Source: Nonomuraea angiospora (GTDB lineage Bacteria; Actinomycetota; Actinomycetes; Streptosporangiales; Streptosporangiaceae). Taken from it: a DNA stretch of 64,000 bases. Each line of letters opens with the position of its first letter. Position 1 is the first letter of the stretch. Under the pieces are notes generated by a model. It searched no databases. It saw only the letters and a program-made list of their open reading frames with translations, and was not told the origin of the DNA. The position numbers and the translations under genes were made by a program. Positions 27,740 through 48,600 of this stretch are shown piece after piece. Location of the stretch: contig NZ_JADBEK010000001.1 in the NCBI RefSeq assembly GCF_014873145.1, positions 8,184,001 to 8,248,000 of the forward strand, written 5' to 3'.

Positions 27740-27950
27740 CCACGGCCGCCACTACGGCGCTTTCCCGCGGCTGCCAGCCAGCCCTCCCCGCGGCCGCCAG
27801 CTACGCCGCCTTCCCTCGGCCCTCAGCCACGGTGCCTTCCCGGGGCCGCCAGCCACGGCGCCTTCCCGCGGCCGCTAGCCAGCCCTCCCACGGCCGCCAG
27901 CTACGGCGCCTTCCCTCGGCCCCCAGCTACGGCGCTTTCCCACGACACGC
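27740..27950. repeat. ~26-bp tandem repeat array with a 101-bp higher-order period
   Basis: About eight degenerate copies of a unit like CGGCCGCCAGCTACGGCG followed by CCTTCCC run head to tail. Every fourth unit is a shorter variant ending CAGCCAGCCCTCC, at 27768 and 27869, giving a 101-bp super-repeat. All units are C-rich on the plus strand. Reading frames across it are low-complexity and not credible proteins. Confidence 0.8.
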
Positions 27951-28451
27951 CTCTCACCGAGCGCTTCCCCCGCGGCTCCCTCCCCACGGTGCACTCCTCG
28001 CCAAGCGCCCCCCTATCGCGGCCTCACCTGCCGCCCCTGGCCAAGCGCTCTTCGCTACGGGGCTTCGTCAGCGCGCCTCCCGCCAAGCACTCCCCGGCAA
28101 GCGCTCCCCGCCACCGCGCCCTGACGGCGCACCTCGCCGAGCGCTCTTCGCCACCACACGCCCTCCACTGCAGCGGCACCCAACCACCCCGCCGCATTCG
28201 TATGCCCCGCCGCCGTCGTTGCCGCGACTCGACCGCTGCACTTACCTCCAGCCCGCGGCACCCCACGACAGCAGCGCCACCACAGCCCCGTGCGCCCTCC
28301 CGCGCGCAGGCAGTTATCCACAGGCCCACCACAACCCCCACCCAACAATCCCCAGAACCCCGTTCACCCTCTCCCCAACCCACCCACCTCCAGCAAGGTT
28401 GGCCTCCCAACACCCACCCCACCCCAACCCACCCCCGAGAGGCCGACTGGA
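27951..28451. other. C-rich low-complexity gap upstream of ssd, no gene seen
   Basis: About 500 bp of strongly C-biased plus-strand sequence with degenerate short repeats (GCGCTTCGCCA- and CCCACC-like words). Open frames run through it only because stops are rare at this base composition. They encode Pro/Ala/His/Arg-rich low complexity and lack a ribosome site until the ssd start. A promoter for the tad operon must lie here or in the array, but I cannot pick it out. Confidence 0.6.
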
Positions 28452-29492
28452 ATGCACCGCCCCCTCGTCATCACCGAAGACCACGCCCTGCTCGACGACC
28501 TGGTCCGCATAGCCGCCGCCGCAGGCGCCCAACTCGACGTGGCCCACGTCCCCGCCCACGCCCGCCCGTTCTGGAACCTGGCCCCGCTGATAGCGGTAGG
28601 CGCCGACCAGGCAGACGCCGTGGCCGCGAGCTCACCCCCCACCCGAGACCAGGTCCTCCTCGTGACCCGGGCCCCCGACGACCCGGACACCTGGCGAAAA
28701 TGCGTGGCCGTGGGCGCCCAGGCCGTCGTGACCCTCCCCAACGACGAGCGCCACCTGGTGGAGCGGCTGGCGGACGCCATGGAGCCCGACCCCCGCTCAG
28801 GATCCGTAGTCTGTGTGATCGGCGGCCGAGGCGGGGCAGGCGCGAGCGTGCTGTCGGCGTGCCTGTCCCTGCGAGCCTCGGGTGACCACCTCCGGACCTT
28901 GCTGGTGGACGCCGACCCGCTGGGCGGCGGCATAGACGCACTGCTGGGCCACGAGGAGGCATCGGGCGCCCGCTGGGGAGACCTGGTCGCCAGAGAGGGC
29001 CGGATCAACTCCAGCGCACTTCAGGCCGCGCTGCCGTCGTTCGGCGACCTGGCGGTCCTCTCCTTCCACAGAGGGGAGGTGGCGGCGATCCCCGCCCAGG
29101 CCATGCGCTCCGTCCTCGAGGCAGGCCAGCGAGGCTTCGACCTGATAGTCGTCGACCTCCCCCGCCACCTCGACCCAGCCGCGATCGAGGCCCTCACCAG
29201 AGCGAAGACCACGTTGATGGTCGCCACGGCCGACGTACGCGGCATTCTCTCGGCCGTACAGGTGCTGGGCGAGACCCGCAAACACACCTCGGACATCCGC
29301 GCCATCCTCCGCCCGGGCGTGGTGGACGACGACATGGCCGCGGGCGCCCTGGGCATCCCGTCCGCCGGCACCCTGCCCGACCAGCCGAGACTCACCGCCA
29401 CCCTCAACCGGGGCGAGCTGCCCAAGCTGGGCCCCCGCACGGTGATGGGCGCCCTGTGCGGCACTCTCCTACGAGACCTCCTCCCGGCATGA
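28452..29492 (+). CDS. ssd: Septum-site-determining/TadZ-CpaE-like protein
   Basis: The 346-residue protein has an N-terminal receiver-like region (~1-115) and a MinD/ParA-like domain. Where MinD has KGGxGKT it reads 'VIGGRGGAGASVLSACLSL', lacking both the signature and P-loop lysines, so ATP hydrolysis is doubtful. 'LLVDADPLGGGIDALLG' and 'FDLIVVDLPRHLDPAA' keep the Walker A' and B shapes. This is the layout of mycobacterial Ssd (Rv3660c) and TadZ, which place Tad machinery or affect septation. The ATG at 28452 has GAGAGG 9 bases upstream. It overlaps tadA by an ATGA. Confidence 0.88.
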   Translation: MHRPLVITEDHALLDDLVRIAAAAGAQLDVAHVPAHARPFWNLAPLIAVGADQADAVAASSPPTRDQVLLVTRAPDDPDTWRKCVAVGAQAVVTLPNDERHLVERLADAMEPDPRSGSVVCVIGGRGGAGASVLSACLSLRASGDHLRTLLVDADPLGGGIDALLGHEEASGARWGDLVAREGRINSSALQAALPSFGDLAVLSFHRGEVAAIPAQAMRSVLEAGQRGFDLIVVDLPRHLDPAAIEALTRAKTTLMVATADVRGILSAVQVLGETRKHTSDIRAILRPGVVDDDMAAGALGIPSAGTLPDQPRLTATLNRGELPKLGPRTVMGALCGTLLRDLLPA

Positions 29493-30673
29493 GCGCCCCG
29501 CAACCGCCGGCTCCCGCTGGTGCCGTGTCCCAGGAACTGGTCGAAGCGGTCCGCGTACGCCTCGCCAGAGCGGGCGTAGAGCCCAGCGCCGCCCAGGTGG
29601 CAGTGGCCCTGCGAGCCGAGAAATCCGTGTACGGCGACGCGGAGATCCTCGCGGTGGCCAGGGCACTCTGCGCCGACCTCATGGGTGCCGGCCCTCTGGA
29701 GCCGCTCCTGGCCCGGCCAGACGTGACAGACGTCCTGGTCAACGGCCCGCGCGAGGTATGGATAGACGATGGCGGCGGCTTACGCCGTACCTCTGTGACC
29801 TTCGCGGACGACGGGGCCGTACGCCGGCTGGCCCAGCGCCTGGCGTCCGTCGCTGGCAGGAGGCTCGACGACGCCTCCCCGTACGTGGACGCGAGACTCG
29901 CCGGCGGCGTCCGCCTCCACGCCGTGCTTCCGCCGGTGGCGTCCGGTGGCACCTGCGTGTCGCTACGCCTACCGCCGCGCCGTACGTTCACCCTGGACGA
30001 CCTGGTGTCGGCGGGCACGATCACCCCATTTGCCATCCCGGTGCTGACAGCCATGGTGACCGCCAGGCTGGCATTCCTGGTGACGGGCGGCACAGGCACC
30101 GGCAAGACGACCCTCCTGTCCGCCCTGCTCTCGCTCGCCGACCCGGCAGAACGCCTGCTCCTGGTAGAGGACTCAGCCGAGCTCCGCCCCCTCCACCCCC
30201 ACATCGTCCGCCTGGAAACCCGCCCGGCGAACCTCGAAGGCGCGGGCGGCGTGAGCCTGCGCGACCTGGTACGCCAAGCGCTGCGCATGCGCCCGGACCG
30301 TTTGGTGGTCGGGGAGGTCAGAGGCAGCGAGGTGGTGGACCTGCTGGCCGCCCTCAACACGGGCCACGAAGGCGGCTGCGGCACGCTTCACGCCAACACC
30401 GCCGCCGACGTACCCCCTCGCCTGGAAGCACTGGGCTGCGCAGCAGGGCTGACCAGGGAAGCCGTACACAGCCAGCTGGCCGCGGCGCTCGACGCGGTCA
30501 TTCACCTGACCCGCGGCCGCCCGGACGGCCGACGCCGCATAGCCGAGATCTGCCTGCTCTCCAGAACGTCAGCCGGCTTCGTCGAGTCGATCCCGGCCCT
30601 GACCTTCGACGCGAGGGGCAACTCCCAACCCGGCCCTGCCTACGACGCCCTCTCCAAAAGAGCCCAGCCATGA
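29489..30673 (+). CDS. tadA: TadA/CpaF-type secretion ATPase
   Basis: The 394-residue protein is a GspE/CpaF-family ATPase. An N-terminal domain contains 'GPLEPLLARPDVTDVLVNGP', followed by Walker A 'VTGGTGTGKTTLLSALLSL', the Asp box region 'LLLVEDSAEL', Walker B 'MRPDRLVVGEVRGSE' and His box 'GHEGGCGTLHANTA'. It powers assembly or export of the Flp-like pseudopilin encoded at 35.0 kb. Its ATG overlaps the ssd stop (ATGA). All catalytic motifs are present, unlike in ssd. Confidence 0.93.
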   Translation: MSAPQPPAPAGAVSQELVEAVRVRLARAGVEPSAAQVAVALRAEKSVYGDAEILAVARALCADLMGAGPLEPLLARPDVTDVLVNGPREVWIDDGGGLRRTSVTFADDGAVRRLAQRLASVAGRRLDDASPYVDARLAGGVRLHAVLPPVASGGTCVSLRLPPRRTFTLDDLVSAGTITPFAIPVLTAMVTARLAFLVTGGTGTGKTTLLSALLSLADPAERLLLVEDSAELRPLHPHIVRLETRPANLEGAGGVSLRDLVRQALRMRPDRLVVGEVRGSEVVDLLAALNTGHEGGCGTLHANTAADVPPRLEALGCAAGLTREAVHSQLAAALDAVIHLTRGRPDGRRRIAEICLLSRTSAGFVESIPALTFDARGNSQPGPAYDALSKRAQP

Positions 30674-30695
30674 TTCCCAGCACAAAGGCCACGCC

Positions 30696-31403
30696 ATGAC
30701 CGGCGCCCTCATAGCAACACTGTCCACAGCCTGCGCCGTATGGCTGTGGACAGCCCCGGACACCCCCACCACCCGCCTGGCGAGGCTAGTGACAGGCAGG
30801 AGCAAATACAGCCGGACATCCCTCACCACCCGCCTCACTCGCCCCACCGCCGCCCGCCGCGCGCAGCACTGGCGCCACGCATCAATCGAGCTATGCCAGT
30901 CCCTGTCGGCAGAGCTGTCGGCCGGCCGCACCCCAGGAGAGGCCCTGACCAGGGCAATCGCCTCAGTGGACTTCCCAGCCGCAGAAACCCTGCGTCCGGT
31001 CGTCGCCGCCGCAAGAGACGGCGGCGACGTCTCCGCGGCCCTCACCGCATCGGCCCCGCCCCAGGGCGGCGAGGGCCTCCGCCAACTGGCGGCCTGCTGG
31101 GAAGTAGGCGTCACAGTAGGCGCGGGCCTGGCCGTATTGGTCGAGCGAGTCGCGAGCACGCTACGCGCAGCCCAAACCCACCGCCAGGACGTCGCCGCCC
31201 AACTCGCGGGCCCCCGCACCACAGCCCGCCTCCTGGCCGTACTGCCGGCCCTCGGCCTCCTCATGGCCGCCGCCCTCAACATGCACCCGCTGGACTTCCT
31301 CCTGGGCAGTCTCCCCGGCCTCATGTGCCTGATAGCAGGCATCGCCCTCGACGCCTGCGGCCTGTGGTGGACCAACCACATGGCCACCCAAGCGCAAACC
31401 TAA
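30696..31403 (+). CDS. tadB: TadB-like inner-membrane secretion protein
   Basis: The 235-residue protein has an N-terminal membrane helix, a cytoplasmic GspF-type region ('LCQSLSAELSAGRTPGEAL' and 'LRQLAACWEVGVTVGAGLA'), and two C-terminal membrane helices ('LLAVLPALGLLMAAALNM', 'LPGLMCLIAGIALDACGL'). This is the shorter actinobacterial TadB. It starts 22 bp after tadA and should form the platform with TadC. It is followed by a ~980-bp repeat-filled gap that separates it from tadC, whereas the genes normally adjoin. Confidence 0.85.
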   Translation: MTGALIATLSTACAVWLWTAPDTPTTRLARLVTGRSKYSRTSLTTRLTRPTAARRAQHWRHASIELCQSLSAELSAGRTPGEALTRAIASVDFPAAETLRPVVAAARDGGDVSAALTASAPPQGGEGLRQLAACWEVGVTVGAGLAVLVERVASTLRAAQTHRQDVAAQLAGPRTTARLLAVLPALGLLMAAALNMHPLDFLLGSLPGLMCLIAGIALDACGLWWTNHMATQAQT

Positions 31404-32382
31404 CCACCGCCCCAATCCCAAGAGAGCAGCCCACGCACAACCCCGAACCCCAACCCACCCACACAGCACCACCATCGGGGACCGGACCGCCAGTCCCACA
31501 GCACCTTCACCCCTTCAGAACCGCCAATCGGCTGTGCAATCCGCCATGGCGCGGCTCCCGTGCGATGTCTACAGCCGCTCCGACTCTCGACCCACTTGCA
31601 ACCACCCACACAGCTTCCACCCAGCTGAAACCGGCCCGAGCAGAACGCCCGCCCCATCAAGCGCGCCACTCAGACCGCGCAGTCGCCAACCGCAGCCACC
31701 GGCCAGGCCCGCCATCCGCCAGGCCTGCGACCTTCAGCCCGCCAGCCACCAAATCGCAGCCACCCCACCAAGCCCGCCACCCGTGTCAGCCACCCTCCGG
31801 CTTGCCAGCCACCACAGCGGCCACGCCGGTCACAGTGGCCACGACGACACGTCCGCCACAAAAGCCACACCGCCACGCCAGCCACGCGTCCACCACATGC
31901 CCAGGGCCATGCCGCCCACGGCGGCCACCCACCCGTCAGCTACCGCCACGCCGCCCCGGCCACACTTCCCACGCCGCCACTTAGCGCCACGACGCCACAC
32001 AGGCCAACTTCCCACGGCCGCCACCTACCGCCACGCCGCCACACCCGCCGCGCAACCCACGGCCGCCAGCCAGGTAACGCCACGCTGCCACACCCGCCAT
32101 GCCCCCCGTCCTCCACTCACCGCCAAATACCGCCGGTAGGCCCGCCACCCGCTAGACCGGCCACGCCGGCCACGCCGGAAACCCGGCCACGCCGGCCACG
32201 CAGGCAAGATCCGTCAGGCACGCCACCCGCCAGGGCGGCCACCCACAGGCTCACCAGCCACCAAAGGCACTACCCACCAAGCCGGCCACCCACTAACGCC
32301 CATCCACCCACTAAATGCCCATCCACTCACCAAACGCGCCGCTCACCAAGCAACCCCACACTGAACCGATCGGACCTCGCCA
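31404..32382. repeat. GCCAC-rich low-complexity gap between tadB and tadC
   Basis: About 980 bp without a credible gene. From about 31640 the plus strand is dominated by GCCAC/CCGCCACG words. The clearest short tandem array is the 10-bp unit CCGGCCACGC at about 32155-32210, and diffuse ~30-bp periodicity is seen elsewhere. Frames are open over long stretches but give His/Pro/Ala-rich low complexity. The first ~230 bp are less repetitive and carry no recognisable signal. Confidence 0.7.
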
Positions 32383-33171
32383 ATGCTCGAATGGCTCTCT
32401 GCCTTCCTCGTCGGCCTGGCTACATGGCTATGGCTCTCTCCCCGAACCCCGGCAGAGCGCCTCTCCCAACTACGCCCGCCATCCAATCCGCACCCTCAAC
32501 AGCCACATCCAAACCAGCAAACGCAATCCCGCAGTGACGAGCCACTCTGGCAAGATTCCCCACCCACCGGCATCACCCGCAAGACGATCACCATCGCCAC
32601 CTGCACCGGCCTGTTCACTGCCCTCCTGATCGGCGGCATCCCCGGAACCATCGCCGGCCTCCTGATCACCCCAGCCGCCGCAGCCTTCCTCCACAAGAAA
32701 CAACCCCAGCAAACCCACCACGACCGCCGCCGAATCTCGGCCGACCTCCCATTCGCCGCGGACTTGATGACCGCATGCCTGCTCGCCGGCCGCCCAGTGA
32801 GCGACGCCACGGAAATCGCAGCCAACGCGATCGGCGGGCCCCTCGGCCAGCGGCTGAAATGGGTCAGCACCCAACTACGCCTGGGCGCCGACCCCGACCC
32901 CACCTGGGCCGCGCTCGCCAAGGACCCATCCACGGCCCAACTCTCCCGCGCCATGAGCCGAGCGGCTCAAAGCGGCGCACCGGTAGCGGACGTCCTTACC
33001 CGCCTGGCCGACGACGCCCGCGAAGCCGCCAGAGCCGATTCCGTCGCCTCAGCCAGAAGCGTCGGCGTAAAGGCAGTAGCCCCGCTCGGCCTCTGCTTCC
33101 TCCCGGCATTCGTCCTGCTGGGAATCATCCCCGTAATAGCCGGCCTGGCCTCCACAATCATCATTCCCTGA
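32383..33171 (+). CDS. tadC: TadC-like inner-membrane secretion protein
   Basis: The 262-residue protein has a GspF-type cytoplasmic domain ('DLPFAADLMTACLLAGRPVS' and 'SRAMSRAAQSGAPVADVLTR') and C-terminal membrane helices ending 'LCFLPAFVLLGIIPVIAGLA'. The Tad platform is normally a TadB-TadC heteromer. The segment between the first helix and the domain is Gln/Pro-rich and differs in composition from the rest. It is in line with tadB across the repeat gap. Confidence 0.85.
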   Translation: MLEWLSAFLVGLATWLWLSPRTPAERLSQLRPPSNPHPQQPHPNQQTQSRSDEPLWQDSPPTGITRKTITIATCTGLFTALLIGGIPGTIAGLLITPAAAAFLHKKQPQQTHHDRRRISADLPFAADLMTACLLAGRPVSDATEIAANAIGGPLGQRLKWVSTQLRLGADPDPTWAALAKDPSTAQLSRAMSRAAQSGAPVADVLTRLADDAREAARADSVASARSVGVKAVAPLGLCFLPAFVLLGIIPVIAGLASTIIIP

Positions 33172-33618
33172 ACCTTCTGCATTCCCCGAACAAACTGGTT
33201 ACTTAGAGCGGAAGGACCACCCTCGCCAAACCCGGGATCGCAAAAACAGCCCTCAACACCAGGCCCACCCAGCGCACCGATAGAAGCCCATACAGCGAGC
33301 TCCCCCGGACGACGGGGGCGATGACCACCAATCAGGGCGATACCTGCGGCCGCGGCACCGAGCCGCGCGATCGAGGAACACAGGGCCATTCAGGCAAAAC
33401 GACCACTCTAGTTCGCCTCGCACTCCCACCGGCATCGAGCCCCTTCGAGGCAACGACCGCCGAAGCGTCCTTCCCGGCCGGCCCGCCACCAAATGGGCAG
33501 CCGACGAACGCCACCACCCCTCTATCGGGCACGTCCTGAGCTTTTGGTGCAGACCGGAGAGATCAGTCCAAACCGCGTGCATGGTTCGGTGAGCGCTTCA
33601 GCTTGAGTCGTCGGCGGA
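33172..33618. other. gap downstream of tadC, no gene seen
   Basis: About 450 bp with lower GC and no credible ORF. A 72-codon plus-strand frame (33321-33539) has no ribosome site and no recognisable motif. I see no repeats or clear terminator stem. Confidence 0.5.
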
Positions 33619-33885
33619 TCACTCCGCTCGATCGTGATCGGGGTCTTTACAACATCGTGGTCGGTGGGATGCGAAGTGCTCGTTCATATGCCGTCGAAGG
33701 GCTGCGACCTCGTCTCCCTCGCCGCCAAGAGCGGCGAGGTCTTGCCTTATCTCGATCTGGACCTCGCTGATCTCGGCCTTCAACTGGGCCATGTTGGTCG
33801 CCGTGCCATCGTTGCTGCGGCACTGGCCCGCTTTGAGCGTGCGGAGGTGCAACAGCAACTCGAGGATTTGTGCCTCTAGGTCCAT
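33619..33885 (-). CDS. Orphan 88-residue coiled-coil protein
   Basis: A minus-strand ORF with AGGA 5 bases before the ATG encodes a charged, helical protein: 'MDLEAQILELLLHLRTLKAG', then 'MAQLKAEISEVQIEIRQDLA' with heptad-like leucines, and a C-terminal His/Cys tail 'HMNEHFASHRPRCCKDPDHD'. The tail could bind metal. The DNA has clearly lower GC than its surroundings and lies antisense inside the tad locus, so it may be a recent arrival. I recognise no family. The frame is open upstream, so a longer form is possible. Confidence 0.45.
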   Translation of the reverse strand: MDLEAQILELLLHLRTLKAGQCRSNDGTATNMAQLKAEISEVQIEIRQDLAALGGEGDEVAALRRHMNEHFASHRPRCCKDPDHDRAE

Positions 33886-34336
33886 GAATTCCTGCCTTTG
33901 TGCCAGCTCAGACGGATTGTAGGGTCTGGTGACGGGCCGGATTTGGCTGCGTAAGAACACGATGACAGAAAGTCCACGCGCAGGGCAGCCATCATCACTT
34001 GTAGCAAGAGTGAAGTTCTTCATACGCAAGCTGATGTTGTTGCTCCCGCAGGGGATGATCGGGCACCGTAGATGCGGACGCAAATGGGCCCATGGTAGGC
34101 GGAAACGGTGCATCCGACCCAGCATAAGGGCACAACGACGCTTCTCGCGTCCTCTATATCGCCTTCTGTGTACTTAGCGCCACCTCTAGCAGACTATGGT
34201 CTATCGGGCCTTTTGCGTCGCTGCTTTGTGCGCATTAACACCCCTCAGATCAAGCAACTCATTCCTGGTGCGCGTGTACCAATGCCGCTTTGACGAGACA
34301 ACTCCGCCTCTGAGCCCACGAGCGCCGGGCCCGAGT
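33886..34336. other. lower-GC gap, no gene seen
   Basis: About 450 bp of unusually low GC for this window, upstream of the orphan coiled-coil gene. It may hold that gene's promoter. No conserved ORF, tRNA or repeat is visible. Confidence 0.45.
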
Positions 34337-34673
34337 CCAAGCAGCGCAGCCTTCGAGTCCGGACAGTGCCTCGTCCGGCCCGGGCAACACCGCGTGCGGG
34401 CCCAGGCAACCCCGGGTTGGAGTCCAGGCAGTGCCGCTTCCGGCCATGCGGCCTCCGGCCCGGGCAGCGCCGCCTCCGAGTTCGGACAGTGCCTCTTCCG
34501 GCCCAGGTAACACCGTGTGCGAGCCCCGGCAACCCTGGGCCGGAGCCAGGCAGCGGGGCCTTCGGGCGGGGCAGTGCGGCCTCTGGCTCGGGCAGCGCGG
34601 CCTTCGGGCGGGGCAGCGCGGTCTTCGGCCCGGGCAGCGGGGCCTTCGGGCGGGGCAGCGCCGACGCCGCCTC
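34337..34673. repeat. nested tandem repeats: 123-bp duplication followed by a 21-bp array
   Basis: Two imperfect copies of a 123-bp unit lie side by side; for example GGACAGTGCC occurs at 34361 and 34484. From 34548 a 21-bp unit (GGGCAG + CGCGGCCTTCGGGCG) repeats exactly in phase, with GGCAG at 34549 and GGGCAG at 34569, 34590, 34611, 34632 and 34653. The 21-bp period keeps frame and reads as heptapeptide repeats on either strand. No start signal or conserved domain supports a protein. Confidence 0.85.
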
Positions 34674-34980
34674 CGGGCTCAGACAGAGTCGCAACTGAGC
34701 ACAGGTATCGCCGCCTCCGAGCGCGCAACCCGGTGCCTGGGCCCTCTCCGCCGCAACGCCATCTCCCAGCCCTCTACGCGACCTCCAGGTCCCAATGGCG
34801 GTCTCCGGGGCCCCAAGCCCATGCCCCGATCCGCTTCGAGACGCTGTATCCACAACGTTGGGCTGCGCGATCTCGTCCATCCACAGAACGCCGTTCGGCC
34901 CCTCTCCGGCGACCCGGCTTCCGCCAACCTAAGGACTCCCGCCGGACAAGACCCGGCTCCGAGCACCACCTGGAGGCACG
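34674..34980. other. leader region of the flp gene
   Basis: About 300 bp between the 21-bp array and the flp start. It is non-repetitive and carries no credible ORF. It ends with a GGAGG ribosome site 4 bases before the flp ATG. A promoter is expected but not identified. Confidence 0.4.
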
Positions 34981-37096: not shown

Positions 37097-37380
37097 GGAG
37101 TGGGAGTCGATGGTGAGGGACTCCGGTGGGGGAGTCGATGGTGAGGGACGTGAGGGACTCTGGTGGGTCGGGAGCGGAGGGTGAACGGCTCTGGTGGGTC
37201 GGGAGCGGAGGGTGAACGGCTCCGGTGGGTGGGAGTGGATGGCGAAGAAGGCCAGTGGTGGGGAATTGATGACCAGGGACTTTGGTCGGTGGGGAGTTGA
37301 CGGAGAAGGCGTCCGGCGGGTGCGGAGCCGACGGTGAGGGATGGGGTGCTTGCGTGGAACTGATGACCAGGAGGGAGTCG
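37097..37380. repeat. ~31-bp tandem repeat array
   Basis: About nine units of the type GGTGGGTCGGGAGCGGAGGG + TGAACGGCTCT. GGTG phase markers fall at 37162, 37193, 37224, 37257, 37288 and 37319 (spacings 31, 31, 33, 31, 31), with more diverged units before (37097, 37125) and after. Two neighbouring units are nearly identical. The array is G-rich on the plus strand and lies directly upstream of the methyltransferase start. Confidence 0.85.
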
Positions 37381-39783: not shown

Positions 39784-42636
39784 TTACTGAGAAGACAGCA
39801 GTGTGTTGAGGAGGCGGACGGCGCCTCGTTTGTCGAGAGGCTCGTTGCCGTTGCCGCATTTCGGGGATTGAATGCAGGAGGGGCAGCCTCGTTCGCATTC
39901 ACATGAGGTTATGGCTTCGCGGGTGGCGGTCAGCCAGTCGGCCGCGCGGGCGTAGCCGCGTTCGGCGAAACCCGCCCCGCCCTCGTGGCCGTCGTACACG
40001 AAGACGGTGAGCAGCCCCGTGTCGGCGTGAAGTTCGGTGGAGACGCCGCCGATGTCCCAGCGGTCGCAGGTGGCGAAGAGGGGGAGCAGACCGATGGAGG
40101 CGTGTTCGGCGGCGTGGGCGGCGCCGCCGAGGTCGATGCCCGCCTCGGCGAGCGGCGCGACCGCCGAGGCGGGGAGCGTCCACCAGACGGCGCGGGTGCG
40201 GAGAGTGCGGGGTGGCAGGTCCAGGGGCTCGTCGCCGAGCATCTCGCCCGATTGGAGGCGTCTCTTGAGGTAGGAGACCACTTGCCGGGTCACCTCCACC
40301 TCGCCGAAGTGGAGCGTGCCGGGGCCCAGGGGATGGGAGCGCTGGGTGGCGAGGATGGAAATGTCGGTGATGTCGCGAGCGAACGTCGTGAAATCCGGGG
40401 TCGCGCTGGACACCAGGGCGACCCCGGCCTCCAGGTCCAGAAGCTCAACCAGGAAGGTCTCGCCCTGATGGATGTAGACCGCGCCCGTGTGCACCGTCGT
40501 GTGCGCGGACGGCTCGTCCACGCTGCCCAGGAGGCGCCCGGTGGACGACTCCACGACCTGGATGGGGGCGCCTCCGCCGCCTCGGATGTCGGCGAGGTCG
40601 GTGGCACGCTCCCGCTTGGTCCAGAACCAGCCGGCGGGCCGCCTCCTGAGCAGCCCCTGGGAGACCAGGTCATCGAGGACCGTTGAGGTGGTGGTGCCGA
40701 AGATGGGCAGGTCGTCGTCGGTCAGCGGGATCTCGGCGGCCGCGGCGCAGAGGTGGGGGCCCAGGACGTACGGGTTGTCGGGGTCGAGGACGATCGCCTC
40801 CACGGGCTGGCCGAACAGGGCCTGGGGGTGGTGGACGAGGTAGGTGTCCAAGGGGTCGTCCCTGGCGATCAGCACGGCGAGCGCGTCCTGGCCGTCGCGG
40901 CCCGCCCGGCCCGCCTGCTGCCAGAGGGAGGCGCGGGTGCCGGGCCAGCCCGCGATCAGCACGGCGTCCAGGCCTGAGACGTCCACGCCCAGTTCGAGGG
41001 CGTTGGTGGTGGCCAGGCCCATGATCGTGCCTGAGCGGAGGGCCTTCTCCAGGAGCCTGCGGTCTTCGGCGAGGTATCCGGCGCGGTAGGCGGCGATCTT
41101 GTCGGGGAGGTCGCTCCAGTCCGGCTGGGCGGGGGCGTCCGGGAGCGCCCAGGTGAGGGAGCTCTCCGAGGCCGGCTCGATCGTCGGGCCCGTGTGCTCT
41201 GAGGCGCAGGCCGCCGGGTCCGTCGTGGAGAGCCCGCTGGTGGTTCGGGATGGTTCCGGCGTGGCGGGGTCCGCCGGCTCCTCTGTGCCGGGTTGGCGGT
41301 CCGTTTCCAGCAGGGTGGCCTGGGTCGTCCCGCCTGGTTCGGTTGGCGACTGGCGGCTGGTGGTGGGGGCTGGTTCGGGGGAGGTCGGCGGGGTGGCGCT
41401 GGTGGGCTCGGCCGTGCCTGGTTGGTGGTTGAGGGTGGGGGCTGGGTTCAGGGGGGCTGGCTGGGGGGTGGTGGCCTGTTCGGCTGTGCGTGGCTGGTGG
41501 CTGGAGGTGGGGTTGGTTTCCAGCGGGGGCGTGCCGGTTGTGTTCGGCTGGTGGCGGGTTGCGGGGCGGGGGTGGCGGGTGGAGAGGGAGAAGGCTACGT
41601 CGGCGAGCTTGGCGCGGGCCGTCAGGGCGACTGTTTCGGCGCCGCGGCGGGAACGTACGAAGGCGAGCGTGCGGACGTCGGCCAGGACGAGGTCCGCCAG
41701 CAGATCCGCCGCCTCTGCCGTGGCCGTACGCCGTACAGGGGCCCCTCCCTCGCCCCGTAGCTCGGTCAGGGGCGGCTCCCACAGCGCGATGGTGGTGGAA
41801 CCCTTGGGTGAGGCGTCCACGGTCACCTCGTCCATCTCAAGCCCCGTCAGCCTCATCCCGAACGCGCCCGGCTCGCTGGCGGTCGCCGAGGCGAGCAGGA
41901 ACGTGGGGCGCGAGCCGTAACGGGCGCAGACGCGGCGCAGGCGGCGCAGGATCTGGGCGACGTGGGAGCCGAAGACGCCGCGGTAGCCGTGGCACTCGTC
42001 GACGACGACCATGCGCAACCGGCGGAAGAACGAGGACCACTGGGCGTGGCGGGGGAGGATGCTGCGGTGCAGCATGTCCGGATTGGTAAGGACGTAGTTG
42101 GCGTGCTTGCGCACCCACGTACGTTCCTCGAACGGCGTGTCGCCGTCAAAGCAGGCCGCGCGGAGCTGGGTGATGCGCAGCTCGCGCAGGCCGCGCAGCT
42201 GGTCGGCGGCCAGGGCCTTGGTCGGGGTCAGGTACAGGATCGTGCCGCCGTCGAGGCAGGAGGCGACGGCGGGAGTGAGGTACGCCAGCGACTTCCCGGA
42301 CGCCGTACCCGTTGAGATGATCACGTTTCGGCCACGGAATGCCAGGTCGGCGGCCTCGTACTGGTGAGGCCAGAGTCCTGTCACCCCGCGGTTCGCCAAG
42401 CGCGTAACAAGTACTTCTGGCGTCCACTTGGGCCATCCCGCTTGACCCGCCCGACGTGCTGGAACATGCTCCACATGGGTGACACGCTCATGACGTGCGG
42501 GAACACCGAGCAGGTGGCGGAGGAGTGGACCCGCCTGTTGTGGGGAGGATGCGGAGGAAGTCACTGTTTCCAGTCTTGCATCGATGGGCAAAGTCGCCGG
42601 GAATCGTGATTTCGTATAGACACAAGCCAGACGCAT
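39784..42636 (-). CDS. MrfA-like DEAD/DEAH-box helicase with DUF1998 domain
   Basis: The 950-residue protein is a superfamily 2 helicase. It has motif I 'ISTGTASGKSLAYL', Ia 'LYLTPTKALAADQL', II 'VVVDECHGYRGVFG' (DECH), III 'LLASATASEPG', and lobe-2 motifs 'LATTNALELGVDVSG' and 'WQQAGRAGRDGQDALAVLI'. A C-terminal DUF1998-like region ends with four cysteines in 'CECERGCPSCIQSPKCG'. Relatives include B. subtilis MrfA (mitomycin repair) and Rv3649. A ~150-residue Thr/Pro-rich insertion splits lobe 2 (DNA about 41130-41600). The start is ATG 42636 or a GTG at 42564. It is divergent from bldG. Confidence 0.9.
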   Translation of the reverse strand: MRLACVYTKSRFPATLPIDARLETVTSSASSPQQAGPLLRHLLGVPARHERVTHVEHVPARRAGQAGWPKWTPEVLVTRLANRGVTGLWPHQYEAADLAFRGRNVIISTGTASGKSLAYLTPAVASCLDGGTILYLTPTKALAADQLRGLRELRITQLRAACFDGDTPFEERTWVRKHANYVLTNPDMLHRSILPRHAQWSSFFRRLRMVVVDECHGYRGVFGSHVAQILRRLRRVCARYGSRPTFLLASATASEPGAFGMRLTGLEMDEVTVDASPKGSTTIALWEPPLTELRGEGGAPVRRTATAEAADLLADLVLADVRTLAFVRSRRGAETVALTARAKLADVAFSLSTRHPRPATRHQPNTTGTPPLETNPTSSHQPRTAEQATTPQPAPLNPAPTLNHQPGTAEPTSATPPTSPEPAPTTSRQSPTEPGGTTQATLLETDRQPGTEEPADPATPEPSRTTSGLSTTDPAACASEHTGPTIEPASESSLTWALPDAPAQPDWSDLPDKIAAYRAGYLAEDRRLLEKALRSGTIMGLATTNALELGVDVSGLDAVLIAGWPGTRASLWQQAGRAGRDGQDALAVLIARDDPLDTYLVHHPQALFGQPVEAIVLDPDNPYVLGPHLCAAAAEIPLTDDDLPIFGTTTSTVLDDLVSQGLLRRRPAGWFWTKRERATDLADIRGGGGAPIQVVESSTGRLLGSVDEPSAHTTVHTGAVYIHQGETFLVELLDLEAGVALVSSATPDFTTFARDITDISILATQRSHPLGPGTLHFGEVEVTRQVVSYLKRRLQSGEMLGDEPLDLPPRTLRTRAVWWTLPASAVAPLAEAGIDLGGAAHAAEHASIGLLPLFATCDRWDIGGVSTELHADTGLLTVFVYDGHEGGAGFAERGYARAADWLTATREAITSCECERGCPSCIQSPKCGNGNEPLDKRGAVRLLNTLLSSQ

Positions 42637-42733: not shown

Positions 42734-43084
42734 GTGGATCTGAAGTTGGATCACCGCACCGAAGACCGACTCACCATCGTGGAGGTCGAGGGTGAGATCG
42801 ATGTCTACACGGCGCCGAGATTGCGTGAGCTCCTCATCGACCTGGTGAACAAGGGCAACTTCCACCTGCTCGTCAACATGGAGAAGGTGGACTTCCTCGA
42901 CTCCACGGGCCTTGGCGTCCTGGTCGGGGGGCTCAAGCGGGTGCGTGCGCACGACGGCTCGCTCGAGCTGGTCTGCACCCAGGAGCGCATCCTGAAGATC
43001 TTCCGGATTACCGGTCTGACCAAGGTCTTCGGGATCTACGCTTCGGTCGACGAGGCCAAGGAAGCTCACGGCAAAGACAAGTAG
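42734..43084 (+). CDS. bldG: STAS-domain anti-sigma factor antagonist BldG
   Basis: The 116-residue protein is a single STAS domain: '[19 protein letters not shown]' and the phosphorylation loop '[19 protein letters not shown]', where Ser in DST is the expected phosphosite. Length and sequence match BldG, the pleiotropic anti-anti-sigma factor of Streptomyces that is needed for aerial growth and antibiotics. The start is the GTG at 42734. It is followed 1 bp later by its predicted anti-sigma partner and lies divergent from the helicase gene, the same layout as in Streptomyces. Confidence 0.92.
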
Positions 43085-43085
43085 C

Positions 43086-43505
43086 ATGGCTACCGTCGAG
43101 CTGACGTTCAGCGCTCTTCCCGCCCATGTGCGGACCGCGCGGCTGGTGGCGACGGCGATCGCTCGCCGCACCGGCGTGGAGGAGTCCCTGCTGGACGAGG
43201 TAAGGCTCGCTGTGGGTGAGGCCTGCTCCCGGGCAGTCGAGGCGCACCGCGTTCACTGTCCGGGCGAGCCCATCCGCATCGAGCTGCGTGACGACTCCGG
43301 GCGTTTCGAAGTCACTGTCAGCGACCAGGCCCCCAGCGATGAGATCAAGCAGGAGCAGCCCCTCGATCTGGGCATGCTCTCTGACTCGTTCATGTCGGGC
43401 TTCGGCCTCGCGGTCATCGAGGGCCTGGCCGACGACGTGGAGGTCTTCCCCAGCCCGAAGGGCACGAACATCCGCATGAGCTGGCCCGCGGCCGCCAAGG
43501 TCTGA
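43086..43505 (+). CDS. Anti-sigma factor, HATPase (SpoIIAB/RsbW-like) partner of BldG
   Basis: The 139-residue protein has a GHKL kinase fold: N-box region 'VRLAVGEACSRAVEAHRVH', 'VTVSDQAPSDE' near G1 and 'SGFGLAVIEGLADDVEVF' for G2, ending 'GTNIRMSW'. Such proteins bind sigma factors and phosphorylate STAS antagonists. The usual N-box Asn appears replaced (EACSRAVEAH), as I recall for the Streptomyces homologue next to bldG. It starts 1 bp after bldG and is surely co-expressed. Confidence 0.88.
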   Translation: MATVELTFSALPAHVRTARLVATAIARRTGVEESLLDEVRLAVGEACSRAVEAHRVHCPGEPIRIELRDDSGRFEVTVSDQAPSDEIKQEQPLDLGMLSDSFMSGFGLAVIEGLADDVEVFPSPKGTNIRMSWPAAAKV

Positions 43506-44069
43506 GCCGGCTCCGCCGTCCCGCCTCGCTCCGCCGGGCGTCCCTTCGTGGCGCTCGGCGTGCGGTCGTTCTGTGCTTAAAAACCCCATCTTGTACGGCG
43601 GAGCACGGGCGGCACCACCCGCCGCACGTGGCTGAGCGCCTCCAGGGAGACGCCCGCTGACCCGCGCGTGCCTGGCCGCCGTAACGGCGCACGGGCACCG
43701 TGGTTCCCGCCTTCCGCTGGCCCAGGGGGTGAACGGGGGTTCGTGTAGCGAAGTGGGCCCAACGGATGACCCCGACGGGCGAACGAGGTTCGTGGGCGGG
43801 CGGTCGCACTGGGCGAGGGCGGCTTCGCGGGGCGCACAGCCCTATGGGTGCCCCGAGGGGCAAAGGGAGTCCGTGGGTGGACTGTCGCATGGGGCAAGCG
43901 GGGGCGGACGGGCTCGGTGGGCGGCCAGGCGAACTCGCGGGGCGGGCGGGCTCGGCCGGTCATCAGGCGGGCTACGGGGCGGGCGGCGCGGCGGGCGGTC
44001 AGGCGGGCTGGTGGAGCGGCGGTCAGGCGGGCTCGCGGAGTGGGCGGTTTCGTGGTGGGGCGGTCGCGC
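43506..44069. other. G-rich gap downstream of the bldG pair, no gene seen
   Basis: About 560 bp. The first 250 bp are ordinary high-GC sequence without a credible ORF. From ~43760 the plus strand becomes strongly G-rich with GGGCGGGCG-type words leading into the arrays that follow. Long open frames on both strands here are products of base composition. Confidence 0.5.
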
Positions 44070-44365
44070 GGCATGCGGGTCTGTGAGGCGCGCGGCGTTG
44101 CGGGTCTGTGAGGCGAGCGGCATGCGGGTCTGTGAGGCTGGCGGTCCTGTGGCATGCGAGTGGCGTTGCGGGTCTGTGAGGCGTGGGGCGGTCGGGCGGC
44201 ATGCGAGTGGCGTTGCGGGTCTGTAGGCGCGCCGGTGTCGCGGGTCTATGGGGCGAGCGGCATGCGGGTCTGTGAGGCTGGCGGTCCCGTGGCAGGCCAA
44301 TGGCGTTGCGGGTCTGAGGCATGGGGCGGTCGGGCGGCAGGCGAGTGGGTTGCGGGTCTGCGAGG
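44070..44365. repeat. tandem array with ~140-bp higher-order period
   Basis: The word GGGTCTG recurs at 44077, 44102, 44126, 44170, 44217, 44242, 44266, 44310 and 44353. The spacings are 25, 24, 44, 47 and then 25, 24, 44, 43, so two copies of a four-part ~138-bp super-repeat lie in tandem. Core unit: GGCATGCGGGTCTGTGAGGC. G-rich on the plus strand. Confidence 0.85.
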
Positions 44366-44391
44366 CGAGCGGCGCGGCGAGTGCGGATGAG

Positions 44392-44680
44392 GTGCGGTCC
44401 GCGGCGTGGATGAGTGTCCGATGGGGCCGTGTCGACGGCACCGACGGGCGTTCCGGTCGTCGGACGATGTGCGGTCCTCGGTGTGGAAGGTCGTCTGACG
44501 GGGTCGTGTCGCCGGGGACGATGGGCGTTCCGGTCGTCGGATGACGTACGCCTGCGCGCGCGGAAGGGCGTTCGAGGAGGCTGTGTCGCCGGAGGCGATG
44601 GGTGTTCCGGTCGTCGGATGAGGGGCGGTCCGCGGCGTGGGTGGGCGTCCGATGTGGCCATAGCCACGGGGGCCCGGTGA
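44392..44680. repeat. 77-bp tandem repeat array
   Basis: About three and a half copies of a 77-bp unit follow directly. GTGCGGTCC starts copies at 44392 and 44469, with diverged starts at 44546 and 44623; TTCCGGTCGTCGG falls at 44451, 44528 and 44605. The spacing is exactly 77 bp throughout. The unit is unrelated to the preceding ~140-bp array. Confidence 0.85.
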
Positions 44681-45128: not shown

Positions 45129-47444
45129 ATGAGCAGGCACATGCTGGCAGCGGAGCCAGCGTCAAATCTGGCCCTGAGTGGAAACAATCTCACCATCGTG
45201 ATCGTGGTCGCCGCGGTCGCACTGATCGCACTAGCCGTCGCAGGCGGCCTGGTGCGCGAAGTGCTGTCCGCCGGCCAAGGCACGGAGCGCATGCAGAACA
45301 TCGCGCGTGCCGTACAAGAAGGCGCCGCCGCCTATCTAGGGCGCCAGTTTCGCACATTGGCGATCTTCGTCGTCGCAATACCTATCCTGTTGCTCCTGCT
45401 ACCGGGGGAAACGGAAGTAGTCGTCGGGCGTTCGATCTTCTTCGTGGTCGGGGCGGTTTTCTCCGCGCTGACCGGGTTCATGGGCATGTGGCTGGCCGTG
45501 CGCGGAAATGTCCGTGTCGCCGCCGCGGCCAACGAATCGGGCGAGAAGCGCGCCATGCGCATCGCGTTCCGTACCGGCGGTGTGGCCGGTATGTTCACCG
45601 TCGGCCTCGGCCTGTTCGGCGCGGCCGTGGTCGTGTTCATCTACCAGGGCAACGCCCCCGGTGTGCTCGAGGGATTCGGGTTCGGGGCGGCGCTGCTCGC
45701 GATGTTCATGCGAGTCGGCGGCGGCATCTTCACCAAGGCCGCCGACGTCGGCGCCGACCTGGTCGGCAAGGTCGAGCAGGGCATCCCTGAGGACGACCCG
45801 CGCAACGCCGCGACCATCGCCGACAACGTGGGCGACAACGTCGGTGACTGCGCGGGCATGGCGGCCGACCTGTTCGAGTCGTACGCGGTCATGCTGGTCG
45901 CCAGCCTCATCCTGGGCAAGGTGGCCTTCGGCGAGCAGGGGCTGGTCTTCCCCCTGATCGTCCCCATGGTCGGCGTGATCACGGCGATCATCGGCATCTT
46001 CGTCACCGGGATGCGCGACCGCGACCGCAACGGCATGTCGGCGATCAACCGCAGCTTCTTCATCTCGGCCGCGATCTCCGCGGTGCTCGTCGCCGTGGCC
46101 GCGTTCCTGTATCTGCCCGACAGCTTCAGCGGCCTGACCGGCGCCACCGTGCAGTCCGACGCCGACCCGCGGTTCATCGCCATCGGCGCGGTGCTCATCG
46201 GCCTGGTGCTGGCCAGCGCCATCCAGCTGCTGACCGGCTACTTCACCGAGACCAACCGCCGTCCCGTACGCGAGATCGGCGAGAGCTCGGCCACCGGCCC
46301 GGCCACCGTCATCCTGGCCGGCATCAGCGTCGGCCTGGAGTCGGCCGTCTACTCCGCCCTGGTCATCGGCGGCGCGGTCTACGGCGCGTTCCTGCTCGGG
46401 TTCGGGAACGTGACGATCGCGCTGTTCGCGGTGGCGCTGGCGGGCACCGGCCTGCTGACCACGGTCGGCGTCATCGTCTCCATGGACACGTTCGGGCCGG
46501 TCTCCGACAACGCCCAGGGCATCGCCGAGATGTCGGGCGACGTCGAGGGCGAGGGCGCCCGCGTCCTCACCAGCCTGGACGCGGTCGGCAACACCACCAA
46601 GGCCATCACCAAGGGCATCGCGATCGCCACGGCCGTGCTGGCGGCGACCGCGCTGTTCGGCGCCTTCCGCACCGCGGTGGAGAGCGCGCTGGCCGAGGCG
46701 GGCGGGGCGGTGAAGTCCGCGCTCGGCGCGTTCTCCACCTTCAGCCTCAGCGTCGACCAGCCGAACGTCCTGGTCGGCCTGGTCATCGGGGCCGCGGTCG
46801 TGTTCCTCTTCTCGGGGCTCGCGATCATGGCGGTCGGACGGGCCGCGATGCGCGTGGTCTTCGAGGTACGCGACCAGTTCCGCAACAAGCCGGGCATCAT
46901 GGACGGCACGGAGAAGCCGGAGTACGGCCGGGTCGTGGACATCTGCACCCGTGACTCGCTCCGCGAGCTGGCCACGCCCGGTCTGCTGGCGGTCATGACG
47001 CCGATCGCGGTCGGGTTCGCCCTCGGGTACGCGCCGCTGGGCGCCTTCCTCGCGGGGGCCATCGCGTGCGGCACGCTGATGGCCGTCTTCCTGTCGAACT
47101 CCGGTGGCGCCTGGGACAACGCCAAGAAGCTGGTGGAGGACGGTCACCACGGCGGCAAGGGCTCTGAGGCGCACGCCGCCACCGTCATCGGCGACACGGT
47201 CGGCGACCCGTTCAAGGACACGGCCGGGCCTGCCATCAACCCGCTGATCAAGGTGATGAACCTGGTGGCGCTGCTGGTCGCGCCCGCGGTCGTGCAGTAT
47301 GCGGGCAACCCGGCCCTGCGGATCGGCGTCACGGTGGTGGCGGTGGCCGTGGTGGTCGGGGCCATCGTGGTGTCCAAGCGGCGCTCCGTGACCACCGAAC
47401 CGGCCAACAACGACAACCGCGAGCACCAGCCCGTGGCCTCATAA
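45129..47444 (+). CDS. hppA: Membrane-bound proton-pumping pyrophosphatase
   Basis: The 771-residue protein has about 16 membrane helices. The pyrophosphate-binding motifs are 'GGGIFTKAADVGADLVGKVE', 'DDPRNAATIADNVGDNVGD' and 'GDTVGDPFKDTAGPAINP'. At the K+-dependence site the sequence is 'GNTTKAITKG': Lys where K+-dependent enzymes have Ala, so a K+-independent H+-pumping enzyme is predicted. The ATG at 45129 has GAGGAG just upstream. It ends in a strong terminator. In Streptomyces it likewise follows the bldG pair. Confidence 0.95.
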   Translation: MSRHMLAAEPASNLALSGNNLTIVIVVAAVALIALAVAGGLVREVLSAGQGTERMQNIARAVQEGAAAYLGRQFRTLAIFVVAIPILLLLLPGETEVVVGRSIFFVVGAVFSALTGFMGMWLAVRGNVRVAAAANESGEKRAMRIAFRTGGVAGMFTVGLGLFGAAVVVFIYQGNAPGVLEGFGFGAALLAMFMRVGGGIFTKAADVGADLVGKVEQGIPEDDPRNAATIADNVGDNVGDCAGMAADLFESYAVMLVASLILGKVAFGEQGLVFPLIVPMVGVITAIIGIFVTGMRDRDRNGMSAINRSFFISAAISAVLVAVAAFLYLPDSFSGLTGATVQSDADPRFIAIGAVLIGLVLASAIQLLTGYFTETNRRPVREIGESSATGPATVILAGISVGLESAVYSALVIGGAVYGAFLLGFGNVTIALFAVALAGTGLLTTVGVIVSMDTFGPVSDNAQGIAEMSGDVEGEGARVLTSLDAVGNTTKAITKGIAIATAVLAATALFGAFRTAVESALAEAGGAVKSALGAFSTFSLSVDQPNVLVGLVIGAAVVFLFSGLAIMAVGRAAMRVVFEVRDQFRNKPGIMDGTEKPEYGRVVDICTRDSLRELATPGLLAVMTPIAVGFALGYAPLGAFLAGAIACGTLMAVFLSNSGGAWDNAKKLVEDGHHGGKGSEAHAATVIGDTVGDPFKDTAGPAINPLIKVMNLVALLVAPAVVQYAGNPALRIGVTVVAVAVVVGAIVVSKRRSVTTEPANNDNREHQPVAS

Positions 47445-47812: not shown

Positions 47813-47816
47813 TCTG

Positions 47817-48293
47817 GTGCGGACCTTGATTGTGCTGCGGCATGCGAAGGCGGCCCACGTGCCCGGGCTGGCCGATCGGGAGCGGCCGCTGACCGGGAGG
47901 GGCGAGCGGGACGCCAAGCGGGCGGGCGACGAGATACGGGCCGCCGGGCTCGACCCGGAGGTCGTGCTGTGCTCGCCGGCGCTGAGGACCAGGAGCACCG
48001 CCGAGATCGCCTTTCCCGAGGCGGAGATCAGTTATGAGCGCGACATCTACGAGGCGTATCCCGATGAGCTGCTGGAGCTGGTCCGCCGGGTCGATCCCGA
48101 GGTGAGCACCGTGGTGCTGTGCGGGCACAACCCGGGGGTGCATGAGCTGGCCGTGGGGCTGGCCGGAGGGGACTACGTGTTCCGGCCGGGCGCGTTCGCG
48201 GTGATCGAGGTGGAGTCTGACTGGGATGAGCTCTGGATGGGTGAGGGGCGCTTGGTAACGCTCTGGGACCCTAAGGAGCCCCACGAGCACTGA
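47817..48293 (+). CDS. SixA-type histidine phosphatase
   Basis: The 158-residue protein is a compact histidine-phosphatase-superfamily member: the phosphate-binding 'LIVLRHAKAAH' with catalytic His, 'VVLCSPALRTRSTAE', and the second His in 'VVLCGHNPGVHELA'. The short length and RHAK (not RHG) motif point to the SixA branch, which dephosphorylates phosphohistidine in E. coli. The start is the GTG at 47817. Target unknown. Confidence 0.9.
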   Translation: MRTLIVLRHAKAAHVPGLADRERPLTGRGERDAKRAGDEIRAAGLDPEVVLCSPALRTRSTAEIAFPEAEISYERDIYEAYPDELLELVRRVDPEVSTVVLCGHNPGVHELAVGLAGGDYVFRPGAFAVIEVESDWDELWMGEGRLVTLWDPKEPHEH

Positions 48294-48339
48294 AATGAAG
48301 GCGCCCCAAAGGATTCGAGGGGCATGGAGACCTCAGAGG

Positions 48340-48600
48340 AGCGCGGAGGCTCCGAGGAAGGGCAGAGGTCCCGATGGGAGCAGAGGTCCTGAGAAGGCGA
48401 GGTCCCACGGGCGCGGAGGTGTCCAGGGCGCCGAGGCTCCTGAGGTGGCGGAGGCTCAACGGGCGCGGAGACGTCCAGGGCGCCGAGGCTGAGGGGCGGA
48501 GGTCCAGCGAGGTGTCCAGGGCGCTGAGGCTCGCGAGGAGGCCGAGGTCCCAATGGGCGCGGAGGGCCCTGAGTGGCACGGAAGCGCCGGAAGAGGGCCG
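48340..48600. repeat. purine-rich degenerate tandem array
   Basis: GTCCAGGGCGC-containing units occur at 48421, 48473 and 48514 (spacings 52 and 41), with further diverged units on both sides built from GGGCGCGGAGGTCC and GAGGCTCCTGAGG words. The plus strand is almost entirely G/A-rich. It fills the gap between the convergent SixA and serB genes. Confidence 0.7.

Follow-up and report, generated by a model that had tools for sequence, protein, structure and literature searches.

A two-armed strand-asymmetry domain with minisatellite-like arrays around the tad genes, bldG and hppA of Nonomuraea angiospora

Introduction

When the two strands of a bacterial chromosome differ in composition, the difference is usually attributed to replication or to the direction of genes. 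In Nonomuraea angiospora we describe an asymmetry that is local, conserved in the genus and two-armed, and that reverses among core genes. It lies in a 64-kb stretch of the single-contig 13.09-Mb genome (8184001-8248000), called the window below, and positions are those within the window unless given as chromosome positions. A preliminary description of this DNA had reported a cluster of unrelated, GC-rich minisatellite-like arrays in the gaps of the interval holding the tad genes, bldG and hppA (27.7-48.6 kb). We find that the interval is better described as a two-armed strand-asymmetry domain of ~21 kb, with the arrays as its visible debris: the plus strand is C+A-rich to the left of a pivot at ~37.05 kb and G+T-rich (in part G-rich only) to the right of it, in spacers and at fourfold-degenerate codon sites alike. 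Sign and pivot are kept in most Nonomuraea loci while the array units turn over.

Methods

Tandem arrays were taken from the rows of Tandem Repeats Finder (TRF), with overlapping rows merged and score cut-offs of >=50, >=80 and >=100. Their background consisted of 100 stretches of 20 kb from the same genome, 60 at 131-kb spacing, 20 contiguous around the window and 20 more widely spaced to the right. Strand skew was scanned in 1,820 overlapping 5-kb windows over 2.14 Mb of N. angiospora sequence. Spacers and fourfold-degenerate codon sites served as neutral sites, and the pivot was defined as the minimum of the cumulative walk of G+T minus A+C. Gene starts are approximate because a purpose-made hexamer-based caller was used, and a few called genes inside arrays are probably spurious.

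Conservation was assessed in 38 loci, 22 from Nonomuraea and 16 from other genera; loci short of spacer or codon sites were dropped from the correlation concerned, as the values of n indicate. Two loci taken as duplicates (L102 of G033 and L116 of G035) were excluded from the 38-locus counts and kept in the fourfold-site table. The pivot survey covered the window and 19 of the 21 other Nonomuraea loci, with G047 and L110 left out, and G047, in which no helicase was called, was excluded from the final helicase correlations and contrasts. Substitutions were polarised on a 14-species tree.

Results

A 6C RNA marks the left edge of the domain, and the end of a serB-like gene its right edge. Genes and elements in between are as follows, protein assignments being based on Pfam:

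27602-27678, plus strand: 6C RNA (RF01066), preceding the tad genes; its Rfam score of 60 bits exceeds the gathering cut-off of 47
28452-29492, plus strand: tadZ-like gene (P-loop ATPase families)
29525-30673, plus strand: tadA (T2SSE)
30696-31403, plus strand: tadB (T2SSF)
32383-33171, plus strand: tadC (T2SSF)
34981-35466, plus strand: small protein with DUF4244
35466-35855, plus strand: TadE-like protein
36280-37020, minus strand: methyltransferase gene (Methyltransf_11) just left of the pivot; G+C at third codon positions (GC3) 0.68
37050: pivot; net walk -1388 on its left side and +856 on its right, against random-walk standard deviations (sd) of ~81 and ~75
37899-39581, plus strand: g379, a secreted-looking protein with no Pfam match; fourfold residual (GC/AT skew) +0.10/+0.02
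39784-42636, minus strand: helicase with MrfA Zn-binding and HRQ1 winged-helix domains
42734-43084, plus strand: bldG-like STAS protein
43086-43505, plus strand: HATPase_c_2 kinase-like protein
45141-47444, plus strand: hppA, H+ pyrophosphatase (H_PPase); fourfold residual -0.05/+0.17

A lower-GC part of the domain at 33600-34300 holds no convincing gene and is possibly a relic insertion. An inverted repeat seen by eye upstream of g379 was not recovered by the repeat search at the settings used.

TRF places strong GC-rich arrays of differing periods in the spacers of the interval, as the preliminary description had stated, and none equally strong in the remaining window. GC skews are those of the plus strand:

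27729-27941: C-rich array, periods 26/48/74/100, left arm; GC skew -0.34
31933-32044: C-rich array, period 44, tadB-tadC spacer; GC skew -0.49
32157-32205: array of period 9, tadB-tadC spacer, grouped as C-rich
32286-32337: array of period 19, tadB-tadC spacer, grouped as C-rich
34451-34678: array of period 21/42; GC skew +0.21
37102-37148: G-rich array, period 15, right arm
37158-37246: G-rich array, period 31, right arm; GC skew +0.55 at 37.2 kb
43901-44048: G-rich array, periods 38/24/12, 1.6-kb spacer before hppA
44068-44374: G-rich array, periods 24/47/140, same spacer
44384-44659: G-rich array, period 77, same spacer; GC skew +0.36 for the arrays at 44.1-44.7 kb
48407-48565: G-rich array, periods 17/52, right edge; GC skew +0.30

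The rows are head-to-tail with units longer than ~9 bp, as in bacterial minisatellites or variable-number tandem repeats (VNTRs), examples being those at 44068-44374 and 44384-44659. Read from left to right, their skews bear out the switch from C-rich to G-rich arrays noted earlier. After merging, the interval holds 6 arrays (1278 bp) at score >=100, 7 at >=80 and 11 at >=50; the corresponding numbers for the rest of the window are 0, 1 (60051-60120) and 8, and the claim that the flanks lack arrays holds for strong arrays but not for weaker ones. The set of arrays first listed is recovered, except that a 123-bp unit is not reported by TRF at score >=40. Comparison of nine of the array stretches with one another gave a single related pair (27729 and 31933), so that the absence of a shared unit is true of most of them but not of all. 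None of the nine had a match at E<=1e-5 in 100 other stretches of the same genome, which rules out a dispersed repeat family.

At score >=100, the 100 background stretches contain a mean of 1.22 arrays and 223 bp, and three of them come up to the interval in array number and four in array length. In array content the interval thus belongs to the top few per cent of these stretches and is not unique; the view that such a density is confined to it is rejected, and the clustering claimed at the outset survives the genome-wide comparison. Of 128 such arrays, 68 lie mostly outside called genes, and about half of those elsewhere are in coding sequence. Arrays with scores >=80 occur in the spacers of all 22 Nonomuraea loci, with differing periods, and in 10 of the 16 loci from other genera, at densities of 1.97 and 1.10 per 10 kb, respectively (P = 0.03). 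When the nine N. angiospora arrays were compared with the 21 other Nonomuraea loci, just one could be recognised, and this in the nearest sister species (G022). This agrees with the serial independent amplification that had been proposed.

The strand bias extends well outside the arrays. Left-arm spacers have GC/AT skews of -0.25/+0.04 (27.1-28.5 kb) and -0.41/+0.48 (31404-32382, between tadB and tadC), and right-arm spacers of +0.33/-0.05 (37.0-37.9 kb), +0.29/-0.27 (39.6 kb), +0.21/-0.15 (43.5-45.1 kb) and +0.15/-0.14 (47.4-47.8 kb). Spacers between co-directional plus-strand genes follow the two arms, with C+A in excess in the left arm and G+T in the right, and those in the window flanks are mostly near zero, with a few short ones reaching 0.26. 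Fourfold sites, read on the plus strand, give -0.35/+0.61 for the tad genes and +0.35/-0.25 for the helicase, a minus-strand gene. As residuals from the genome coding mean, the fourfold GC skew is -0.48 in tadC, -0.44 in tadB, -0.14 in tadA and -0.22 in tadZ, strongest near the pivot. G-quadruplex (G4) motifs are sorted by strand, with 6 on the minus and 1 on the plus strand in the left arm and 6 on the plus and 0 on the minus strand in the right arm (right flank, 4 and 3). A landmark suspected near 34-37 kb is real, in that the bias flips near 37.05 kb. The data support a local process, as had been suggested, and one wider than tandem amplification, as spacers and fourfold sites share the bias; the other suggestion, selection for spacer DNA, is not favoured because codon sites are biased likewise.

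Chromosome-wide, intergenic GC skew is -0.019 to the left and +0.015 to the right of dnaA, and the skew of the domain is up to ~20 times that of chromosome replication. The change from C+A to G+T at 37050 is of the kind seen at oriC; no dnaA is adjacent, the sole Bac_DnaA match of the genome (7.757 Mb) being ~430 kb away, or ~430-490 kb to the left of the window. In the skew scan, no place is stronger than this domain and the dprA region at 9.882-9.900 Mb. The nuo operon (8.388-8.399 Mb) ranks third among spacer-rich places, and the other high-scoring windows hold 0-592 nt of spacer. Spacers elsewhere (468 gaps) have a mean skew of zero in every gene orientation and are correlated with the next gap only (rho 0.13). 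The three skewed places make up 2.6% of the sample but hold 23 of the 68 intergenic arrays, a count in which the window's own 6 arrays are not independent because arrays were the reason for choosing the window. Intergenic DNA makes up fractions of 0.40, 0.34 and 0.25 of the three places, compared with 0.125 overall.

The two arms are conserved across the genus, as is the gene order. Among Nonomuraea loci with enough sequence, 20 of 21 have negative left spacers and 19 of 22 positive right spacers, versus 3 of 12 and 10 of 16 in other genera, which are mostly without the skew. Of the 20 Nonomuraea loci surveyed, 19 have their pivot between tad and the helicase gene (18 of 19 without the window), two of them inside g379 (G006 and G020); in G035 it falls inside the helicase gene. 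Left-spacer skew correlates with tad fourfold skew (rho 0.75, n = 30; 0.67 in Nonomuraea, n = 19; 0.06 in other genera, n = 11), left and right spacers are anticorrelated (-0.53, n = 30), and right spacers correlate with helicase sites (0.54, n = 30; 0.37 in Nonomuraea alone, P = 0.09), all uncorrected for kinship and with close species pairs included.

Two loci from other genera differ in sign from Nonomuraea. The tad spacers of Herbidospora (L134) are G+T-rich, opposite to the Nonomuraea left arm, and Thermocatellispora (L129) has a G+T-rich stretch between tadE and the helicase.

The second domain, at 9.88-9.90 Mb, has a C+A arm with a ComM-like Mg-chelatase-family protein and DprA (PF02481) and a G+T side on which an XerC-like integrase and an M23 peptidase are encoded together with rpsB, tsf and frr. 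Its pivot lies at chromosome position 9,887,953, ~185 nt past dprA, and both arms are present with the same polarity as at tad. On the plus strand, fourfold sites are G+T-rich both in xerC, a plus-strand gene (+0.42/-0.66), and in the minus-strand M23 gene (+0.50/-0.50); rpsB and tsf themselves are C-rich at these sites. The composition expected of damage to single-stranded DNA (fourfold G over C and T over A on the exposed strand) is found at tad, the helicase, xerC and M23. The sign change from dprA to xerC is present in N. angiospora, G022, G017 and G046; of ten further species, all have a negative GC skew in dprA (weakest -0.12) and nine a positive one in xerC (weakest +0.08, G033). Overall, xerC GC skew exceeds +0.15 in 12 of 14 species and is C-rich in one only.

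The comEC locus (PF03772) was picked as a prospective test after the tad and ComM-DprA loci and before its skew was read. Here, comEA (HHH_3) has fourfold skews of -0.64/+0.89 and comEC of -0.24/+0.33, with spacers of -0.27 to -0.32, and to the right of comEC a holA-like gene (named by eye) has +0.15/-0.11 with spacers of +0.12. The walk shows a strong left arm (net -831, sd 55) and a weak right arm (+102, sd 39), and arrays with scores of 213, 134 and 80 are present. The nuo operon, identified through Pfam, has a C+A arm only. Because nuo is skewed and is not an uptake locus, the association of skew with uptake genes is at most an enrichment, and the link of skew to DNA uptake is suggestive only.

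Within the nuo operon (8.388-8.400 Mb, L080), the genes lie apart, with gaps of up to 1 kb that carry C+A-rich arrays; nuo genes are usually tightly packed.

Fourfold bias of the helicase and of xerC, at the two unlinked domains, covaries strongly across species (rho 0.93 in 13 species, and 0.93 in 10 with one per close pair), and phylogenetic contrasts, on a tree with two poorly supported nodes, give r = 0.74 (P = 0.004). This is a hint of a species-level factor behind the covarying right arms.

Polarised substitutions run in the predicted direction in two genes or gene groups. In tad, G>A (114/3869) exceeds C>T (150/8282; P = 1e-4) and C>A (176/8282) exceeds G>T (36/3869; P = 1e-6); in xerC, C>T (38/788) exceeds G>A (58/1936; P = 0.02) and G>T (49/1936) exceeds C>A (6/788; P = 0.002). 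Identity with the sister G022 is 96-98% in the flanks and 87-95% inside the interval, with sharp edges where a 97% stretch stops at 27687 and a 98% stretch restarts at 48663. An identity drop is found at the same place in two of three other close pairs, and the second domain drops in the N. angiospora/G022 pair. Ratios of tad-to-helicase over hppA/flank fourfold divergence are 1.90, 2.02, 1.36 and 1.03 (the last for G045/G046) in four close Nonomuraea pairs and 1.50 for N. angiospora/G023. Hypermutation of coding sequence specific to the domain fitted these data initially and then failed against control genera that lack the skew: in Microbispora, Microtetraspora, Sphaerisporangium, Streptosporangium and Planotetraspora, whose skew is not comparable, eight pairs have ratios of 1.52-2.21. 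Because unskewed genera share the excess tad-helicase divergence, the domain is not a substitution hotspot of its own; what is specific to it is the direction of change and the arrays.

Discussion

Our tentative reading, to which we give slightly less than an even chance, is that the arrays are by-products of a ~21-kb strand-asymmetric mutational domain, for which we infer the following mechanism. A recurrent process would separate the strands and move outward from the pivot, leaving the minus strand exposed on the left arm and the plus strand on the right. Base damage of the exposed strand (C to T, G to T) would make it G+T-rich, and slippage on it would seed short-lived minisatellites. Passages of PMC4182315 describe deamination of single-stranded DNA at C and A, which yields T and G on the exposed strand. 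The likeliest driver may be R-loop-forming transcription, divergent and for the most part non-coding, that starts where the left-arm operon ends downstream, with local outward DNA synthesis as a possible alternative, and a trans-acting repair or transcription factor could set the strength in each species.

Several results weigh against this reading. The last spacer (48294-48675) is G+A-rich (GC +0.26, AT +0.33) and not G+T-rich, and the right-arm genes hppA (-0.05) and bldG (-0.02) are almost unskewed in GC at fourfold sites, perhaps through selected codons. Some Nonomuraea (G001, G034 and G007) are weak in tad skew, and in G001 and G007 the left arms are weak; xerC lies on the C+A side in G047 (GC skew -0.21), and one later gene in the right arm of comEC has the opposite sign (-0.26/+0.22). 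In the polarised counts, neither C>T/G>A nor G>T/C>A is asymmetric in helicase and dprA, no arm has a significant difference between A>G and T>C, and a trio analysis found no C>T excess in the right arm. The control gene hppA is asymmetric to a similar extent (C>T 73/6183 over G>A 28/4648), four flank control genes have a slight G>A excess, and the C/G transversion asymmetries merely mirror composition. Helicase-xerC is the sole pair significant (P < 0.05) in contrasts; tad-dprA (0.50, P = 0.07), dprA-xerC (-0.48, P = 0.08), tad-xerC (-0.34, P = 0.24) and tad-helicase (-0.37, P = 0.22) are not. Finally, hppA, nuo and housekeeping genes are involved too, and the reading gives no reason for them.

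Three other causes were set aside. Ordinary replication forks are too weak, because the intergenic skew around dnaA is just -0.019/+0.015. Resection of break ends, by exposing 3'-ended strands, would by our reasoning predict the opposite sign in both arms. Gene direction as the sole cause is contradicted by xerC, M23 and the right-arm spacers.

Local outward DNA synthesis from the pivot, whether through an ectopic start of replication or through break-induced synthesis that recurs there, is an unlikely alternative. The left arm would be copied leftward and the right arm rightward, with long single-stranded intermediates. C+A on the left and G+T on the right is the polarity of a replication origin, such synthesis would by our reasoning expose the observed strands, and template slippage would yield arrays too. 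It would, however, have to be far more mutagenic per passage than normal forks, which leave an intergenic skew of only ~0.015-0.019, and origin-like elements were looked for through Rfam and inverted repeats only.

We are more doubtful still of selection or codon usage, under which C+A-rich (poorly structured) or G+T-rich RNA would be favoured for operon expression or termination and the arrays would be tolerated filler. Most skewed coding strands are indeed C+A-rich (tad, helicase, ComM, dprA, comEA, comEC and M23), and coding strands across the genome lean slightly towards C (-0.07 at fourfold sites). Yet xerC, a plus-strand gene, has a strong G+T excess in 12 of 14 species, right-arm spacers between plus-strand genes are G-rich, and spacers and codon sites covary across species.

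It is likewise rather improbable that the mutational process is a trans-acting, species-tuned strand separation at natural-transformation loci (tad/Flp pilus, ComM-DprA and ComEA-ComEC), starting where each uptake operon ends downstream and running outward. This could, for example, be divergent or antisense transcription by which the operon is silenced, or it could belong to the competent state itself. According to passages of PMC4322843, transformation of Micrococcus luteus needs both tad clusters and comEC, and tad together with comEA/comEC is frequent in actinobacteria. As with the Tad/Flp-dependent transformation described there for M. luteus, homologues of tad, comEA/comEC and dprA are found at three skewed places; unlike it, the Nonomuraea set has a putative role in competence, and nuo and housekeeping genes are skewed too. 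If true, each locus would carry a heritable two-armed scar and minisatellite nursery, and DNA-uptake loci could be read from skew alone. With three DNA-uptake loci skewed, one of them predicted, this offers a lead toward competence in filamentous actinomycetes, though nuo is skewed as well.

A relaxed, fast-evolving region with weak codon constraint and long spacers, which gathers junk and repeats and whose skew is chance drift, is a poor candidate. It would fit the lower GC3 and longer spacers of the interval and tad genes that diverge 1.5-2.2 times faster than hppA/flank genes at fourfold sites, also in unskewed genera; drift would not give the same sign and pivot genus-wide with opposite arms, nor make two unlinked loci covary, and the conserved polarity largely contradicts it. 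A single introgression of diverged DNA into N. angiospora or its sister would explain the sharp identity drop against G022 near 27.69 and 48.66 kb but is scarcely credible, given the drops in two of three other close pairs and in the second domain of the same pair, the gene order and pivot conserved in the genus and the excess tad divergence that recurs in pairs of other genera.

The closest known systems share some of these features. Immunoglobulin class-switch regions are kilobases of strand-skewed, G-rich, mutually unrelated tandem repeats; the likeness is an analogy only, as programmed recombination and a deaminase are not part of the Nonomuraea evidence. Replication origins and replichores have the polarity of the domain around their turning points; unlike replichore skew, the domain spans ~21 kb, lies hundreds of kb from dnaA and is stronger by the factor given above. 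The arrays resemble bacterial minisatellites and VNTRs, including those of Clostridioides difficile, in which unrelated satellites are mostly clustered in two regions (passages of PMC6749651): in both, unrelated tandem units (~10-140 bp) cluster in parts of the chromosome. In contrast to the C. difficile clusters as portrayed there, the N. angiospora cluster coincides with a conserved two-armed strand bias that covers codon sites and, compared with VNTRs, the units themselves differ between species. Vertebrate mitochondria, with strand-displacement replication, have a similarly strong G+T versus C+A asymmetry at fourfold sites, attributed in sections of PMC4182315 to deamination of the single-stranded strand. 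The Nonomuraea asymmetry differs in being local, two-armed and chromosomal, its A>G component is unseen in the polarised counts, and strand exposure in it is putative. A search of open-licence papers found no description of such a skew domain, and the words tandem, repeat, intergenic, antisense and non-coding are absent from the main text of PMC5431353. If the arms are chronically single-stranded, they would be natural reporters of an unseen strand-separating activity.

Additional observations

The Hrq1/MrfA-like helicase carries an in-frame, repetitive and length-variable insertion in Nonomuraea. A repetitive insertion in this gene had been pointed out beforehand; its length does vary in the genus, and TRF reports only one weak row inside it (41427-41465, score 50). 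Complete matches are 2,484-3,184 nt long in Nonomuraea versus 2,244-2,322 nt in Streptomyces/Kitasatospora. The closest named relatives of the protein are in N. basaltis, N. thailandensis and N. parvosata (92-94% in the best segment).

Beside the dprA domain, ~14 kb (chromosome positions 9,868.8-9,883.3 kb, L216/L254) are unaligned with the sister G022. Matched dprA contains stop codons in 8 of 54 Nonomuraea genomes (G001, G034, G006, G043, G004, G014, G016 and G038), which could reflect decay, frame differences or assembly errors.

At chromosome positions 7,979.6-7,986.2 kb (L062/L063), adjacent long genes that are low in GC at fourfold sites switch on the plus strand from C+A to G+T, possibly another small two-armed place.

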